This document shows, one piece after another, positions 10,101-24,608 of a stretch of 64,000 nt of DNA. The position numbers were made by a program, and so were the translations under genes. This stretch comes from Phycisphaera sp. (GTDB taxonomy: Bacteria > Planctomycetota > Phycisphaerae > Phycisphaerales > UBA1924), in contig CP098402.1 of the NCBI GenBank assembly GCA_025916675.1, forward strand, positions 2,289,205-2,353,204. The letters are read 5' to 3'. How positions within the stretch are numbered: the first letter of the stretch is position 1; each line of letters starts with the position of its first letter. A model generated the notes under the pieces. The model saw only the letters and a program-made list of their open reading frames with translations, was not told the DNA's origin and did no database searches.

Positions 10101-11699
10101 GTGCGCATCTGCATGCTCAACTGGCCCAAGGCCTACGACGGTGCCACCAAGGGCGGCATCGCCGGCTATACCCAGGCCCTCGCCCTCGCGCTCGCCGCCC
10201 GGGGCCACCGCGTCAGCACCATCGCCAGCGGCACCGCCTACACCCCGGCCTCGAAACGCCACAAGGACCGCCCCGGCCCCTGCACACCCCACCGCCACGC
10301 CGACTGGTTCGGCATGGGCGTCTACGAGATCGCCAACAGCCCCGTCCTCGCGCCCAGCCTCTTGCAGTTCAACGAGCCGCTGGCCGAGGTCGGCAGCCCC
10401 GAACTCGAGGCCGCGTTCGCGCAGATCCTTAGGCAAGAGAAGCCCGACGTGCTGCACGTCCAATCGCTCGAGGGCTTCAGCCTCGGCTGCCTCGATGTCG
10501 CGCGAACCGCCGGCTGCCGCGTCGTCTACAGCCTGCACAACTACCACCCCCTGTGCCCGCAGGTCTACCTGATGCAGAGGCACCGCACGCTGTGTACCGA
10601 CTACGACGGCGGCAGAGCGTGCGAGAAGTGCATCCCCGCGCCCGACCCCGCCCACGAACGCGCCCGCCGCGCCGAGGCCTGGCCCAAGGAGCCGCCCCCC
10701 TTCGAAGCGCCCGCTGCAGAACCCAAGCGCGTGCCCCTGCCCGTGCTCCCGGCCGAGGGCGTCGCGCTCAACGAAACACCGCCCGCCATCGACCCCAACC
10801 ACGACCCCCGCGGGATGAGCGCGCTGCTGCGATCATGGGACACGCCCCGCCGCTGGTGCATCCCGGGCGACCCGACCTGGCAGCCCTTCGACAACACACC
10901 CCGAGCCGAACCAACGCACCACGGCACACCGACCGACTACAGCACCCGCCGCCAGGCCTTCATCGACACGCTCAACCGCTGCGACGCCGTCCACGCCGTC
11001 TCCGACTTCGTCGCCAACAAGTTCATCGCCCACGGCGTCGACGCCTCACGCGTGCACACGCTCACCATCGGCACCATCGCCAACGAGCTACGCGAGCACA
11101 ACGCCGAGCTCGCCTTCGATCCACCCCCACGACCAACCATCAACGCCCGGCCCTTGCGCCTGGTCTTCATCGGTGTCAACAACTGGTACAAGGGGCTGTC
11201 GATGCTGGCCGACAGCCTGGAGATGGTGACGCCCGACACGCTGCGCAACGTGGCCCTCTCGGTCTTCGCCGCCGCCGGCAAGACCATCGAGTACCGCTTC
11301 CGCCGCCTCGAGCCACGCCTGGCCTCCCTCCGCTACGGCTACGAGTATGGGCCGCAAGACCTGCCCTGGATGTGCGGCGGCCAGGACGCCGGCGTCGTCC
11401 CCAGCGTGTGGTGGGACAACGGGCCCCAGACCGTCCTCGAGATGCAGGCCAACGGCCTTCCGGTCATCGGGGCCAACGCCGGGGGCATCCCCGATTTTGT
11501 CCAAGACGGCACCAACGGCCTGCTCTTCACCGCCAACGACCGCTTCGCCCTGGCCGCCACCATCGCGCGCTGCGTGAACGAGCCCGCCATGGTCGCCCGG
11601 CTCCGATCCGGCGTTCGACCACCCAAAACGATGCCTGTCCACGCACAGGAAATGGAGCCGATCTACATGGAGCAAACCGGCGCGGGAGGCGTATCGTGA
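10101..11699 (+). CDS. Glycosyltransferase family 4 (GT-B fold) with Cys cluster
   Basis: A 532-residue enzyme starting at GTG (VRICMLNWPKAYDG), where the Rossmann-like N-terminal domain begins with a glycine-rich donor/acceptor loop (GGIAGYTQALALALAARGH). After LHNYHPLCPQ it has a Cys cluster (C-x-D-Y-DGGRACEKC) seen in a subset of GT4 enzymes that may bind a metal. About 120 poorly conserved residues follow, and then the C-terminal domain with LRLVFIGVNNWYKG, PSVWWDNGPQTVLEMQANG and GGIPDFVQDGTNGLLF, which carries the E-x7-E type nucleotide-sugar site. The stop overlaps the next gene's GTG (11696-11699). Presumably it acts in surface polysaccharide or glycan assembly; donor and acceptor are unknown. 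Confidence 0.85.
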   Translation: MRICMLNWPKAYDGATKGGIAGYTQALALALAARGHRVSTIASGTAYTPASKRHKDRPGPCTPHRHADWFGMGVYEIANSPVLAPSLLQFNEPLAEVGSPELEAAFAQILRQEKPDVLHVQSLEGFSLGCLDVARTAGCRVVYSLHNYHPLCPQVYLMQRHRTLCTDYDGGRACEKCIPAPDPAHERARRAEAWPKEPPPFEAPAAEPKRVPLPVLPAEGVALNETPPAIDPNHDPRGMSALLRSWDTPRRWCIPGDPTWQPFDNTPRAEPTHHGTPTDYSTRRQAFIDTLNRCDAVHAVSDFVANKFIAHGVDASRVHTLTIGTIANELREHNAELAFDPPPRPTINARPLRLVFIGVNNWYKGLSMLADSLEMVTPDTLRNVALSVFAAAGKTIEYRFRRLEPRLASLRYGYEYGPQDLPWMCGGQDAGVVPSVWWDNGPQTVLEMQANGLPVIGANAGGIPDFVQDGTNGLLFTANDRFALAATIARCVNEPAMVARLRSGVRPPKTMPVHAQEMEPIYMEQTGAGGVS

Positions 11700-13360
11700 C
11701 CCCGACGGCCGCTACCCAACCAACACCCGCCCCACACCATACGTTGACCCAACACGCCCACGCATCCTCACAGGCCAACCAGCGCCACGCGGCTTCCACC
11801 GCGCCCCCCGCGACCGCCACGCCCAGCGTGGCCGTGGTCATGGTGACGTGGAACCGCGTGTCTGAAGTCCGCCGGTCGATCGAATCCGTACTCGCACAGA
11901 AGCACGTTGACCAAGGTGCCATCCACCTCGTTGTCGTCGACAACGCTTCGACCGATGGCACGACCGAAGCCCTGACCGGCTGGCTCAAGCCCGAGCGCCT
12001 CGTACGAAACAACACCACCCATGCCGACAAGCCGGCCTTCGACGCAACCAATACTGGCCACGCCAACACCGCGGGCCTCGCCAGCGTCACCCTCGTCCGC
12101 AACACCGCCAACCTCGGCGGCACCGGCGGCTTCAACACCGGCTTCCTGACCGTCGAACACATCCTGACGACCGACACCCCCATCGACTTCCTCTGGCTGC
12201 TCGACGACGACGCCGTCGCCGATCCCACCGCGCTCGCCTCGCTCCTGCAAACCACGGCCGATGATCCCGCAGCCGGGCTCGTCGGTTCGCGCGCCGTCGA
12301 CATCGCCGACCGCCAGACCACGTACGAAACCACCATCTATTACGACCCGCGCCAGGGCCGCATGGCCGAGACCCCACACACCGGCCACCGCCTGCGCGAC
12401 ACGCATGCGCAATGGGTCGATGCCGTCGGCGACACCCGCGGCGACCTCGAGTTCGCGGGCGTGCGCGAGGTCGACGTTGTCTCGGCGTGCAGCATGCTCG
12501 CCCGCTGGAGCGTCGTGCAACAAGTCGGCTACTGGGACCGCCGCTACTTCATCTACTGCGACGACGCCGACTGGTGCCTGCGTGTTGGCCGCTCGGGCTC
12601 CAAGGTTGTGTGCGACCTCGACGCCGTGGTCTACCACACGCCGTGGTTCCAAAAGCTCACGCCCACGCGCCTCTACTACGCCGAGCGCAACGCCATCTGG
12701 ACCATGCGCAAGGGCCTCTCTGGCAGCGCGCGGCGCACCAGCACCGCCCGATGGATGCGATCGGTCCTGCGATCCAGCCTGGCCGCCGGCCTGCGCCGCC
12801 GCCTGTACCACGCCGAGATCCTCCGCAAGACCGCCAGCGACGCCGCAACCAACACCGCCGGCAGGCTCACACAAGCCGAGCCGCCGCACGAGCCCATCAC
12901 CGCCGCGCTCGAACGCCTGAATCTCAACCGCGCCGACGCGAGCCTCGCGTTCCTCTGCATGACCGCGGACCAGGCCACCCTCGCGCGTGACATCACCACC
13001 ACACTGCGCAGCGCCCTCGGCAACACCTGCCCCAGGCCACGCTTCATCACGCGAAACGATGCGGGCACCGGCGACATCACCTATGCCCCCTCCACCCGCT
13101 CGCGCCTGCGCCGCCAGCTCCCCTTGCTGACAAACGCACCCGACGCCTGCGTCGTGCTCAACAACACCAACGACTTCCCGCTTCTGCGCTGCCCCACCAC
13201 GCTTCATATCGATCACCGCGATCCCAATCGGTGTCAGGTCGAGCACGACAGCCTCGGGTGCCGCCTTGCGTTCTTCTGCCGCTGGAGCGCAACGACGATG
13301 CGCGCCATCTGGTACGTCCTGCGCAACAAGCCCCAGCAGCCCCCGGCCCCCTTCGGATGA
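11696..13360 (+). CDS. Glycosyltransferase family 2 (GT-A fold)
   Basis: A 554-residue enzyme starting with the GTG that overlaps the preceding stop. About 45 disordered residues precede the GT-A start SVAVVMVTWNRVSEVRRSIES, then VVVDNASTDGT, NLGGTGGFNTGF and WLLDDDAVADP (the DxD metal/nucleotide motif). The later FIYCDDADWCLRVGRSG segment (ED/DDxDW type) is typical of galactofuranosyl/rhamnosyl transferases such as the GlfT group. The C-terminal about 180 residues are Ala/Arg-rich and unlike the catalytic domain. Its stop overlaps the next start in ATGA. It is probably the second enzyme of a three-step glycan-building operon; the sugar is not predictable. Confidence 0.85.
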   Translation: MTPTAATQPTPAPHHTLTQHAHASSQANQRHAASTAPPATATPSVAVVMVTWNRVSEVRRSIESVLAQKHVDQGAIHLVVVDNASTDGTTEALTGWLKPERLVRNNTTHADKPAFDATNTGHANTAGLASVTLVRNTANLGGTGGFNTGFLTVEHILTTDTPIDFLWLLDDDAVADPTALASLLQTTADDPAAGLVGSRAVDIADRQTTYETTIYYDPRQGRMAETPHTGHRLRDTHAQWVDAVGDTRGDLEFAGVREVDVVSACSMLARWSVVQQVGYWDRRYFIYCDDADWCLRVGRSGSKVVCDLDAVVYHTPWFQKLTPTRLYYAERNAIWTMRKGLSGSARRTSTARWMRSVLRSSLAAGLRRRLYHAEILRKTASDAATNTAGRLTQAEPPHEPITAALERLNLNRADASLAFLCMTADQATLARDITTTLRSALGNTCPRPRFITRNDAGTGDITYAPSTRSRLRRQLPLLTNAPDACVVLNNTNDFPLLRCPTTLHIDHRDPNRCQVEHDSLGCRLAFFCRWSATTMRAIWYVLRNKPQQPPAPFG

Positions 13361-15042
13361 GCACCACCACGCCGCCCCAAGCCGACCGCCCACGCACGAT
13401 CGCCCTGCTGGGCTGGGCCGCGCTCAGCAAGCAGGCCGAGGAGGGCTCGGGCTACAACCTCAACGCGTCCGAGCTGGCCATCGGCCTCGCCCAGGCCGGC
13501 CATCGCGTGCATTACCTGGGCTCGGGCCTGCGATACTCCCTACGCCCCGGCCCCTTCGTGCGCGAGATCAAGCCCTGGCGCGGCGTGCGAAACTTCGAGC
13601 TGCTCAACAGCCCCAACCTCGCGCCCTCGGCCATCAACCTGCGCAACGTTGATTCCGAACGATCCAGCCCGAGCACGACCAAGCTCGTCCTGCGCTGGCT
13701 GCGAGACATCGACGCCGAAGTCGTCCACGCCCACTCGACCGAGGGCCTGAGCCTCGATCTCATCCCCGCGATCGAAGCCGGCGGCATCCCCGTCGTTGCC
13801 ACCACGCACAACTACTCGTACGTGTGCCCGCAAGTCGACCTGCTCTACAGCGAGCACGAGGTCTGCCTCGACTACGACGGCGGCAACCGCTGCGCCACAT
13901 GCCTCGATGCGCCCAGCCCAGCAAACCGCCGCCTCAAGCGACGCCTCGGCCAGACCGCCCAGCGCCTCGTCGGCCACGCCATCACGGGCCACGCGCGCGC
14001 CTCGGCCAAATCCATCGCCAGCGGACGCTCCAAAGAAAACACACCCACCGACGAGCTGCGCTACCTGGGCTACGACAACGGCGCCATCGAGTCGGCCGCC
14101 ACCGCCGAAGGCCCCGCCAGCACCTACGGCGTGCGCGCCGAGCCGCGCGAGCTGCCCAAACCCGCGCCCATCCTGCCCGACGACACCAACGAGCGCATGC
14201 TCGCCAACACCGACATCCACCTCAAGGTCCTCAACGACTACGGCCGCCGCCGAGCAGACGGCGTCGCCGCCCTCAACGCCGCCAGCGTCGTCACGCCACC
14301 CAGCGACTTCCTGGGCCGTGTCCACGAATCCATGGGCCTCGACCCCGCCAAGCGACGCACCGTCCGTCTGGGTCAGCCCCACTTCGATCGCATGCACCGC
14401 GCCGCCATCGCCCAGCCCGGCTACGACCGCGCGCCCTGGACACCCGCCGACGAACGACCGCTCCGCCTCGCCTTCTTCGGCACCGTGCGCCCCAACAAGG
14501 GCCTGCGTGTGCTGGCCGACGCCATCGCCCTCTTGCCCGCCGACACCCGCCAACGCTGCCTCTTCCATGTGCGCGCCTCCGGCGGAGACTGGGCCTTCCG
14601 AAAGCTCCTGAGCGGCTACCCCCAGATCCAGTTCGCCGGGGCATACGACCTCATGCAGCGCGCCGCGTCCGTCCCCGAGTACGACGTTGGCCTGCTCCCC
14701 CACATCTGGATGGAAAACTCGCCGCTCGTGCTGCTCGAGCACCTGCACGCCGGCAAACTCGTCATCACCAGCCGCCTGGGCGGCCCGCCCGAGTGGATCG
14801 TCGACCGCGACGGCGCCACCAACGGCCTGCTCTTCCCCTCGGGAGACGCCCGGGCCCTGGCCGACCGCATCACCGACCTCGTGTGCGGCAACGTGGCCCT
14901 GCCCAGCGCCAAAACTATCCACGACATCACGCCACACCTGACCAGCTACCCCGCCCACCTGGCCGAGGTGCAGTCGATCTACGAGTCCATCATCGAAGCC
15001 AAGGCCTCACGCCCGGTCGACAAAGCCCTCGAGCCGGCGTGA
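13357..15042 (+). CDS. Glycosyltransferase family 4 (paralogue of the first enzyme)
   Basis: A 561-residue GT-B enzyme starting at the ATG overlapping the previous stop. It shares the distinctive layout of the first enzyme of the operon: [20 protein letters not shown], then [13 protein letters not shown], a roughly 130-residue variable insert, and the C-terminal domain with [40 protein letters not shown] and [19 protein letters not shown]. The two GT4 genes are therefore diverged duplicates flanking a GT2. Its last 36 bases overlap, tail to tail, the 3' end of rpoD on the other strand. Role in glycan assembly inferred from family and operon. Confidence 0.85.
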
Positions 15043-21789: not shown

Positions 21790-23145
21790 TCAGTTCAGCG
21801 CGACGAGCCCGCTCGCGCCCGGGGCCGTCACGTGCACGCGCAGATCCCCCATCGCCAGGCCGAGCGCACCGCGCCCCTCGCGGAGCACCAGGTGCCGCAC
21901 GCTGGGCAATGCTGAGAGCGGCCGCCCCATGACCACGGCCACCAATTCGGAGTGATCGCGCAGCCAGCTCGACGCGACCACCAGATCGCGCACCGCCGTC
22001 GAAGCCGAGTCGCTGTCAGCCGCCCATGCCACGGCGTGCAGCACGCCCGCATCGTCGACCGCCATGCCGACACCCCGTGCGTAAGGGCAGGCCACGTCCA
22101 CCGGTTCGAGGCCCTCGGGCAGAGGGCTGGCTTGCGGCCCGATCTTGGGTTGTGGCTCGATCTTGGGTTGAGACTCGGGGGCTATCGCCTTCCCGTCCGC
22201 CGGCTTGGGGGCGTGCATGTCGGCACCCTCGGCCTCGAAGCCAACCGGCGCAACGACTCGGCGGGGCTCGAATCCCTCGCCCGCATCGGGACGCACCTCG
22301 ATCGGATCGACCGACCGGGGCTGCCTCACGAACTGCGCGAGCAGGTCGGGCACGTCCGCCCACGCCGGCGGCTGCCCGTGGAAGAACTCCACCGACGCAC
22401 CGGCGTCGATACGCCGCACCGGCGTCTCGCGATCGACGCTGAAGCCAAGGAACCGCTCGGTCGCGTCGGCAAGCTTGGCGCCCGCATCCGCCGCGATGGG
22501 CTCATCACACCCGGCAATCGCTACACGCATGGCTGGCCCCTGCGCATCGGCGGGCAGGTCTTGGGCGATAGACTTGAAGCTCTGGTAGGCCCCCACGATC
22601 GCCGGATCATCGGCACCGGTCAGGATCGTCATCGAGGCCGCATCACACTCGCCGCCGATCCATCCCGCCTCGGCTTCGGGCAACCGCACGATGAGGTCGG
22701 CCCCGATGCGTCCGAGCGTGGTCAAGGCCCTTGCAAGATCCGTTCCCCGCCCCATATCGGTGGTTGGTGCGCCGAAGACCTCGAGTCGCGCGGCCTCATC
22801 ACCCAGCGTCAGCAAGCCGAGCGGGCGGCCCGTCGCGCTCTGGCGGTCGCGTGCATATTGGCCGGCCCACGCCCCTGCGAACACGGGCAGGTTGCCCAGC
22901 ACCAAGAGCGAGAGCGTCGGCTTACGCGAAACGCCTGTTGGCTTGAGTTCGGTCAGTGTCCTCGGAGCCTCACGCGGCGCCTCGGCCTCATCATCACCCC
23001 CGCCAAGGAACAGCGCGGCGAGTTCATCGGACACACCCTCGGGGGTGTCGGCGCGTGCGTACCGCCCATTCTCATCGGCGGCGTGCAAGTGACGCAGCGA
23101 ACCATTGGTTGGTGCGATCGGTGTTGATGGCGGCTGGTTGGACAT
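21790..23145 (-). CDS. MinD/FlhG-like pseudo-ATPase, partner of the ParA-CBM48 protein
   Basis: A 451-residue soluble protein. After about 90 low-complexity residues it reads like a SIMIBI (MinD/FlhG) ATPase in outline: a first strand and loop where the P-loop should be (LLVLGNLPVFAGAWAGQYAR), a D-type strand (ADLIVRLPEAEAGW), MTILTGADDPAIVGAYQSFK resembling the 'ttpe...ltDAY..iK' segment, then VAIAGCDEPIAADAGAKL...FLGFSVDRE. The P-loop Gly-Lys-Thr is absent, so it should not hydrolyse ATP; the relationship is inferred from pattern only. The C-terminal 150 residues are a linker plus a small alpha/beta domain. The start at 23145 has GGAG nine bases upstream. It lies 59 bp after the ParA-CBM48 gene on the same strand, so probably one operon. 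Confidence 0.5.
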   Translation of the reverse strand: MSNQPPSTPIAPTNGSLRHLHAADENGRYARADTPEGVSDELAALFLGGGDDEAEAPREAPRTLTELKPTGVSRKPTLSLLVLGNLPVFAGAWAGQYARDRQSATGRPLGLLTLGDEAARLEVFGAPTTDMGRGTDLARALTTLGRIGADLIVRLPEAEAGWIGGECDAASMTILTGADDPAIVGAYQSFKSIAQDLPADAQGPAMRVAIAGCDEPIAADAGAKLADATERFLGFSVDRETPVRRIDAGASVEFFHGQPPAWADVPDLLAQFVRQPRSVDPIEVRPDAGEGFEPRRVVAPVGFEAEGADMHAPKPADGKAIAPESQPKIEPQPKIGPQASPLPEGLEPVDVACPYARGVGMAVDDAGVLHAVAWAADSDSASTAVRDLVVASSWLRDHSELVAVVMGRPLSALPSVRHLVLREGRGALGLAMGDLRVHVTAPGASGLVALN

Positions 23146-23204
23146 GATGGTGCGCTCCGTCGCGTGCGTCCCGCCCGGGGATCCTCCGAGCATGGTGCCT
23201 GACT

Positions 23205-24608
23205 CTACACGGCAGGCTGTGGGCCTCCGGTGCCCGTCCCCAGCGAAGCACTTGGTCCGCCGGGGACTTCGGCGATGCTGTTGGGCTCGCCAAATGGGTT
23301 GGTTTCGGCCATCGGGTTGAACGGGTCGGCCGTCCAGAATCCGTCGACCGTCAGCCGATACGCGTGCCGGCCGGGCGGCAGCGCGAGCTTCAGGGCATGG
23401 ACACCAAGGTTCTCATACCGTGTGAAGCGATGGCTCTGGGCCGACCAGTTGTTGAACTCTCCGGCGGCAGCAACGCAGATACCCAAGCCGATGGGCTGGA
23501 CCAGCCACACGCCATCCGAAACGGGATGGGTGCCGAAGGCCTCCGATCCTCGCATGGGCAATAGCAAACGCTCCAATTCGAGCGTGCCATTGGGTGCGGG
23601 CGTCGAAGTCGTCGACCTGCTGTCTGCCGGCTGCTGGCTCGATTGCGGAGTTGTTGCAACGGGTTCTTCCAACTCCATCGCCCGCCGCGCGCGCTCGGCC
23701 ACTTGGGCGACCGATTGCTGGTTGTTCGGCTGCTCCACAATCCTGTCCCAGGATTCGGTTGGCGTGCTGTTTTCGCTTGCGGGGATCGGGGCCGGTGGTG
23801 GCGGCGCCGTGCGATCGACAAGTTCGACCGCGACGGTCGCACACTGGCCCAGCAGCCATTGCGCCAGCTCGGTGTAGTCTCGGGCCGCTTGCGATTCAGG
23901 GGCGTACTCGCCCACCGGGCGGCCGAACGTGGCCGCTTCTTTCACCTTCTCGTCCTTATGGATCACCATCGGGCACACCTGCGAGCCAAACCGCGAACGT
24001 AGCTGATCGAGCAACTCACAAGGCAATGCGGCATCGGGCTCATGGATCGTCGGCACGATCCAGTGCTTCGCCTGGCGACCCAGCCGCTGGCCCAGGCTCC
24101 GCAGCGTGGCCACTTGGCGGCTCGCCCCCTGCTGCGCAAAATAGCTCATCTCGACGGGAATCAGCACCTCATCGGCGGCGCACAGCGCGTTGTAGGTCAA
24201 CAGGCCGATGGACGGCGAGCAATCGATGACGGCCAGGTCATAGCCCTCGATCGAGCCGAGCAGCTTGGCCAACCGCTGGTCCTTGTCTTCCAGCGAAGCA
24301 AGGCCGCCCCGACTGGCTTCGAGGCCCGCCAGCTTCATGCGGCTGGGGACCAGGTCGAGGTTGCGGCCAATCCGCCAGAGCAGCTTCGTGAGGTCGAGGT
24401 TGCGCGGATCGTCGGCCAGCATGGCGTCGCCGACGTCGTTCTCGATGTGCGCTTCGGGGATGGCCAGCCCCGCGGCGCAGTGGGACTGGGGATCCATATC
24501 CACCAGCAGCACCCGCGTTCCCTGAGAGGCCAAGGCCCCGGACAGGCTGATCGCCGTGGTCGTCTTGCCACAGCCACCCTTTTGGTTCACGATGGCGATC
24601 GTGCGCAT
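23205..24608 (-). CDS. ParA-type ATPase fused to a CBM48-like glycogen-binding domain
   Basis: A 467-residue two-domain protein. Residues 1-250 are a complete ParA/Soj ATPase: deviant Walker A NQKGGCGKTT (residues 8-17), VLLVDMDPQSH (Walker A'), YDLAVIDCSPSIG (Walker B), and the switch/DNA-binding surface. Residues about 250-350 are a disordered Pro/Ser/Gln linker. Residues about 360-450 match the early-set (CBM48/AMPK-beta) fold: VAAAGEFNNWS, LPPGRHAYRL, VDGFWTADPFNP and NPFGEPNSIAEV. The two tryptophans and the Asn that contact glycogen in AMPK-beta have equivalents here. No ParB is adjacent. The role is probably positioning or partition of a polysaccharide-containing cargo, which is inference. 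It is followed by a probable pseudo-ATPase gene. Confidence 0.85.
   Translation of the reverse strand: MRTIAIVNQKGGCGKTTTAISLSGALASQGTRVLLVDMDPQSHCAAGLAIPEAHIENDVGDAMLADDPRNLDLTKLLWRIGRNLDLVPSRMKLAGLEASRGGLASLEDKDQRLAKLLGSIEGYDLAVIDCSPSIGLLTYNALCAADEVLIPVEMSYFAQQGASRQVATLRSLGQRLGRQAKHWIVPTIHEPDAALPCELLDQLRSRFGSQVCPMVIHKDEKVKEAATFGRPVGEYAPESQAARDYTELAQWLLGQCATVAVELVDRTAPPPPAPIPASENSTPTESWDRIVEQPNNQQSVAQVAERARRAMELEEPVATTPQSSQQPADSRSTTSTPAPNGTLELERLLLPMRGSEAFGTHPVSDGVWLVQPIGLGICVAAAGEFNNWSAQSHRFTRYENLGVHALKLALPPGRHAYRLTVDGFWTADPFNPMAETNPFGEPNSIAEVPGGPSASLGTGTGGPQPAV

Follow-up and report, generated by a model that had tools for sequence, protein, structure and literature searches.

ATPases of the ParA/MinD type place DNA, carboxysomes, chemoreceptors and flagella. 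A locus in the genome of Phycisphaera sp. raises the question of what such an ATPase does when it bears, in the same polypeptide, a domain of the glycogen-binding type. The locus lies in a stretch of 64,000 nucleotides (the window) taken from a single-contig genome. An earlier reading of this stretch, made from its letters and open reading frames (the sequence-only reading), had seen there an intact ParA ATPase, a disordered linker of about 100 residues and a C-terminal CBM48 domain retaining the glycogen-contacting tryptophans, and had taken the combination to suggest a system that places or segregates glycogen. The fusion gene exhibits the following features:

23205..24608, minus strand: ParA-CBM48 fusion gene P0001, 467 aa, ATG start, single open frame
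23841..24608, minus strand: ParA ATPase domain, residues 1-256 (PF13614, E-value = 1.8e-41), with deviant Walker A NQKGGCGKTT at 8-17, D39 and Walker B D129
23541..23840, minus strand: disordered linker, residues 257-356, pLDDT below 50 across most of it
23670..23714, minus strand: short conserved linker helix, residues 299-313, SVAQVAERARRAMEL (family form SRAAELVxRARxL; predicted helix 300-312)
23262..23540, minus strand: CBM48/AMPK-beta glycogen-binding-type domain, residues 357-449 (PF16561), with W388, R418, W425 and N443

The anatomy drawn from the sequence is borne out in all three parts. The Pfam AAA_31/ParA match covers residues 1-176, and the signature lysine, the catalytic aspartate and Walker B place the protein by sequence among the deviant-Walker-A ATPases of the ParA/MinD group. 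The AlphaFold model of the fusion consists of two confident domains, in blocks mostly of pLDDT 82-98, on either side of a linker with pLDDT below 50 at residues 265-302 and 313-336; residues 359-448 form a confident predicted beta-sandwich. In the profile search, the C-terminal part scores 33.7 bits against AMPK1_CBM (PF16561, E-value = 4.1e-8, residues 376-448), above the cut-off of 26.8, so that it falls inside the CBM48 fold. The gene is one intact reading frame, not two genes, and owes nothing to an assembly or frame error, since the genome is a single contig and the same architecture is found in many other genomes. This recurrence also excludes a chance fusion.

A search of planctomycete genomes, which the sequence-only reading had proposed, finds the same fusion across the class Phycisphaerae. 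A profile of the fused CBM matches 376 of the 397 genomes of the class, a number that takes in any CBM48-like match and not fusions alone; when the 30 best class loci were opened, all 30 encoded ParA and CBM in one frame. The same architecture was seen in a further 17 class genomes and in one genome outside the class (L048), and within the order the fusion is present in 102 of 124 genomes. A separate scan of named genomes yielded 80 loci, aligned from about residue 1 to about residue 440-464 and titled almost wholly Phycisphaerae, Phycisphaerales, Phycisphaeraceae or Planctomycetota. The comparison of these sequences supports the view that the ParA-CBM48 fusion is wide and old in the class. 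Two loci titled Leptolyngbya sp. PLA1 (L258) and Vicinamibacteraceae bacterium PLA1 (L317) carry a Phycisphaerales ParA-CBM locus, and the assemblies are probably mislabelled. A plasmid or phage origin was considered and rejected: at least 5000 plasmid records match, and in each of the best 5000 the coverage of the protein stays below 80%. Against the phage families of PHROGs, the fusion gives a generic ParA match only.

The catalytic residues of the ParA domain are invariant in 119-124 of the 124 order genomes, and K10, K15, D39 and D129 among them in 120-124, the remainder being alignment gaps. Since these residues do not vary wherever they align, the fusion ParA very probably works as an ATPase switch. 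Its best structural matches, in a search with the AlphaFold model, are chromosomal Soj/ParA proteins (Z = 34-36), with McdA (Z = 29.6) and BcsQ (26.5) lower, and its identity to chromosomal ParA/Soj over the ATPase domain is about 33-37%. Identity with BcsQ, the ParA of cellulose biosynthesis, was tried and rejected (TIGR03371, 108.8 bits, under the cut-off of 157.85). The DNA-binding arginines of Soj are R189 and R218. By the columns assigned in our alignment, that of R189 holds arginine in 41 of 124 order genomes (D192 in the window copy) and that of R218 holds lysine or arginine in 62. Position 223, another basic site, is lysine or arginine in 123 of the 124. As the canonical Soj arginines are not conserved, binding of the fusion ParA to the nucleoid is likely but not assured.

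Among solved structures, the C-terminal part is closest to the glycogen-binding domain of AMPK beta-1 (4yef, E-value = 5.5e-9), then to AMPK beta-2, GlgB and SEX4. The alignment pairs W388, R418, W425 and N443 of the fusion with W100, K126 (a conservative replacement), W133 and N150 of AMPK beta-1. In rat AMPK beta-1, residues W100, K126, W133, L146 and T148 touch the sugar, and their mutation lowers glycogen binding (PMC2642990); N150 has been added to these contact residues (PMC4032982). Among the 102 order genomes with a CBM, taken over all families, W388 is conserved in 99, R418 in 94 and W425 in 85. Every change of W388 and W425 falls in one family, f4, of which 17 genomes exhibit an eroded W425, often with an eroded N443 as well, in a module that is otherwise kept. 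W388, R418 and W425 are all intact in the 62 of 62 CBM-bearing genomes that possess a GT3 glycogen synthase, substitutions being confined to genomes lacking GT3. The domain thus combines a score above the curated cut-off, an early-set beta-sandwich and the contact residues that characterize CBM48/AMPK1_CBM, and alpha-glucan binding is likely.

The sequence-only reading had also noted that there is no ParB next to the fusion. This is literally right, as the neighbouring gene contains no ParB domain (no significant Pfam match), but the ParA of the fusion is no orphan, because a conserved, dedicated partner gene directly follows it:

21790..23145, minus strand: operon partner, 451 aa, downstream of the fusion (longest frame begins at 23193)
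23002..23034, minus strand: partner N-terminal helix, residues 38-48, VSDELAALFLG (family form DxLA(D/E)LFL(G/T); predicted helix 38-47)
22312..22923, minus strand: partner central domain, residues 75-278, predicted MinD/FlhG-like fold, with GNLP...W..QYA at the P-loop position
21793..22113, minus strand: partner C-terminal alpha/beta domain, residues 345-451, confident AlphaFold model, hardly covered by fold matches

In every locus of the order that was first inspected, this gene neighbours the fusion on the same strand. Of 131 order genomes, 128 contain it and three do not, namely G095, G209 and G704, the last of them a 78% complete genome; G095 and G209 lack both the fusion ParA and the partner. 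The fusion-family ParA and the partner are adjacent in 122 of 124 order genomes. In other families of the class, such as f5, f98, f99 and f97, the partner again adjoins the fusion, and in the genomes listed for f7, f107 and f108 it was not found or appears only at E >1e-8. That ParA and partner form one working module is highly probable. The two exceptions to adjacency belong to one genus (G512 and G631; L222 and L221), in which about 10 kb separates the ParA-CBM gene from that of the partner and the two are on opposite strands. G095, devoid of the fusion ParA and the partner, encodes a 191-residue protein (L230:5073-5648, plus strand) with a CBM closely similar to that of the fusion and no ParA, possibly a remnant of a fusion.

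The partner has no match in Pfam, NCBIfam or PHROGs. Its central domain is modelled by AlphaFold with pLDDT about 90 over most of its length, and the best fold matches of this predicted model are FlhG (4rz3, Z = 12.3) and FleN (10.9), all others being at 9.5 or below. A Walker A P-loop is not present, there being no GKT/S at the GNLP...W..QYA site; G84, L86, P87, W93 and Q96 are invariant. The model gives the central domain a predicted MinD/FlhG-like fold that has no P-loop. In sequence the partner resembles FlhG weakly (hhalign probability 19%). Common descent of the partner and the ParA domain of the fusion was also considered, and profile comparison gave it no support. The motif of the N-terminal helix recurs in relatives, and in most members the helix lacks a distinctly basic character; an N-terminal peptide is the general mode of action of ParA/MinD partners (PMC10241942, PMC12462528). 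Two distant relatives, L054 and L048, have next to the ParA a gene that opens with GRGI-type motifs; these resemble the motif by which ParB binds ParA (cf. LGRGLSSLL in the ParB of the window organism). Homology to the partner family has some support for the L054 neighbour (E-value = 2.6e-5, probability 75%) and none for the L048 neighbour. The bearing of these motifs on the role of the partner is a lead only.

The resemblance of the ATPase to Soj, its best structural match, raises the possibility that the fusion is simply the chromosomal ParA, working with an unlinked canonical ParB, in which case the partner would act as an additional regulator and the CBM would sense the reserve. A canonical ParB (MPTQRPRKLGRGLSSLLEE...) that has no ParA gene beside it is consistent with this. 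However, the other stand-alone ParA (L001, C1:1791k) keeps a canonical-looking RNIKLAEAPSFG motif that is missing from the fusion family, and G095 and G209 do without the fusion ParA and its partner altogether; we consider such a role very improbable. The canonical ParB is located at L246:1393-2310 (G000:C1, ~3193179-3194096), starts with LGRGLSSLLEE and is unlinked to either stand-alone ParA (L001 and the fusion).

The CBM is less constant than the pair that carries it. It is undetectable in 22 of the 124 order genomes, all of which keep ParA and partner; there the ParA ends 51-225 residues past the ATPase domain, and the partner gene follows. The strict pattern of the linker helix is found in 76 of 102 tails with a CBM and in 16 of 22 tails without one, versus 2-3% of shuffled tails. 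These comparisons point to a core machine made of ATPase, linker helix and partner, to which the CBM would be an accessory alpha-glucan link. Most families of the class have the CBM, and the reading that fits best is that it was added in an ancestor and later dropped by some lineages. As 22 of 124 genomes lost it yet kept ParA and partner, it cannot be the sole cargo contact, and this is the main reason why the proposal of glycogen placement or segregation is not accepted as it stood. Its ingredients are real (the ParA, the CBM and a glycogen operon in the genome), but the CBM is not the whole cargo interface.

Glycogen genes, which the sequence-only reading had suggested looking for among the neighbours of the fusion, were not recognised beside the ParA/partner pair in the neighbourhoods examined; the genome does contain an unlinked glycogen operon. 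This cluster lies 63 kb from the module and encodes a GT3 glycogen synthase, GlgB, a phosphorylase, MalQ and a GH57 protein. By simple counting, the CBM is kept in 62 of 63 order genomes with GT3 versus 40 of 61 lacking it (Fisher 6e-7). On phylogenetically independent pairs (5-6 pairs), the same association gives a median p of 1, and family f4, wholly devoid of GT3, holds most of the CBM losses. We therefore regard the GT3/CBM association as not independent of phylogeny, suggestive and not established. CBM retention exhibits no association with matches to GlgP (PF00343) or to GlgA-type sequences (PF08323). A link within f4 between an intact site and GlgA (p = 0.004) was discounted, as it rests on a single clade of three genomes (G391/G433/G661). 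Among individual genomes, G557 possesses GT3 and no CBM, G433 has an intact CBM site and no match to GT3, GlgB or phosphorylase, and G095 and G209, which have no module, keep a GT3 glycogen synthase.

Absence of GT3 does not mean absence of glycogen, since the GT3-lacking G261 has the GlgE pathway. In this genome GlgE and a TreS-maltokinase fusion lie beside GlgB (L232:2967-8494), an alternative alpha-glucan route within the family. A GT4 protein of about 490-510 residues (LGWEFPPFISGGLGTACYGL), with a partial starch-synthase match, seemingly occurs in most order genomes (loci include L227:1035-2540, L228:727-2193 and L234:2314-3846). Weak PF08323 matches mostly appear to be a GT4-type protein and not GlgA, as in the two examples checked. 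Within the window, three consecutive glycosyltransferase-like ORFs at 10113-15042 on the plus strand may be a surface-polysaccharide cluster.

Such a record could also mean that sugar binding has been lost from the CBM48-like domain, which would now act as a protein-interaction or solubility module. Its repeated loss (22 of 124), the 17 f4 genomes in which W425, and in many cases N443, is eroded while the module is kept, and the want of a phylogenetically independent tie to glycogen genes would all be expected of such a module. A pure scaffold role, however, leaves unexplained the invariant or near-invariant contact residues outside f4, and we judge it improbable.

Building on what was computed (the domain anatomy, the intact catalytic residues, the conserved sugar-contact residues, the class-wide conservation, the linkage to the partner and the repeated loss of the CBM), we propose, with somewhat less than even confidence, an old two-gene positioning module of the ParA type in the class Phycisphaerae, of which the ATPase bears a flexible alpha-glucan hook. 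The ParA domain would bind ATP and dimerise on a matrix, probably the nucleoid. The P-loop-less partner would bind the ParA dimer via its N-terminal helix, the linker helix or both, and thereby switch ParA. The CBM48, on its tether of about 100 residues, would hold glycogen or another alpha-glucan and bring the glucan with its enzymes to the ParA-covered surface. More speculatively, the ATPase cycle may then spread or partition glucan bodies at division. That the glucan is the cargo being moved is likewise put forward with less than even confidence. In its strongest form, as a class-wide system dedicated to the positioning or partitioning of glycogen, in which CBM48 grips a polysaccharide cargo in cis and the MinD-like partner serves as activator, the proposal is rather unlikely.

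Glycogen may plausibly be the cargo that is positioned; a role for it as a signal is about equally probable. The pair may position some other object, such as the chromosome, the division site or another body, while the CBM senses alpha-glucan and thereby alters or sequesters ParA. Nearly every genome of the order has the pair, also where the CBM is gone, which argues that its basic job needs no glycogen. The closest characterised domain, that of AMPK beta, is an allosteric glycogen sensor (PMC2642990), and in ParA/MinD systems it is normally the partner, not the ATPase, that gives cargo specificity (PMC10241942). The glycogen genes of the window genome, moreover, are not linked to the pair. 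On the other hand, no conserved neighbour names another cargo, and the long disordered tether is no less fitting for a physical hook than for an allosteric switch. We rate the signalling role as possible but rather doubtful.

The proposed hook-bearing module may be compared with several known systems. It shares the fold and the catalytic motifs of chromosomal ParA/Soj (ParABS), and differs in its tethered C-terminal CBM48, in having no adjacent ParB and in the poor conservation of the canonical DNA-binding arginines. McdA/McdB and other ParA/MinD cargo systems (PMC10241942, PMC13052382) likewise combine a ParA-type ATPase with one dedicated partner gene; here, in contrast, the partner is a predicted P-loop-less MinD/FlhG-like protein, and it is the ATPase itself that bears a putative cargo- or signal-binding domain. 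FlhG and FleN, MinD-like regulators of flagellar number whose fold comes closest to that predicted for the central domain of the partner, possess the P-loop that the partner lacks and do not have its extra N- and C-terminal parts. The AMPK beta domain (PMC2642990) is the closest solved domain and exhibits the same contact residues, its K126 being replaced by arginine in the fusion; it is joined to a kinase complex, whereas that of the fusion is joined to a positioning ATPase. Bacterial storage granules tied to the nucleoid have a precedent in PHB and polyphosphate granules, tethered by PhaM/PhaF and AlgP, in a review that makes no mention of glycogen (PMC13052382); the proteins that tether PHB are not homologous to ParA. 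The sequence-only reading knew of no described system of this kind, and we likewise found neither a ParA-CBM48 fusion nor a ParA-glycogen system described in the open-licence literature, nor any ParA/MinD ATPase bearing a carbohydrate-binding domain. As a ParA/MinD positioning system the module is of a known kind; what is new is the glucan-binding domain fused to the ATPase, together with a MinD-like partner that has no P-loop.

If the CBM binds glycogen, the module would either add a polysaccharide to the cargoes of ParA systems or provide a direct link from the carbon store to positioning or segregation. In either case it is a wide, near-universal two-gene module at the level of a class, with a partner that carries no annotation, in a phylum of bacteria whose cell biology is known to be unusual. 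The finding suggests, rather than proves, that in bacteria of this class the stores of sugar are coupled to the machinery that positions things inside the cell.
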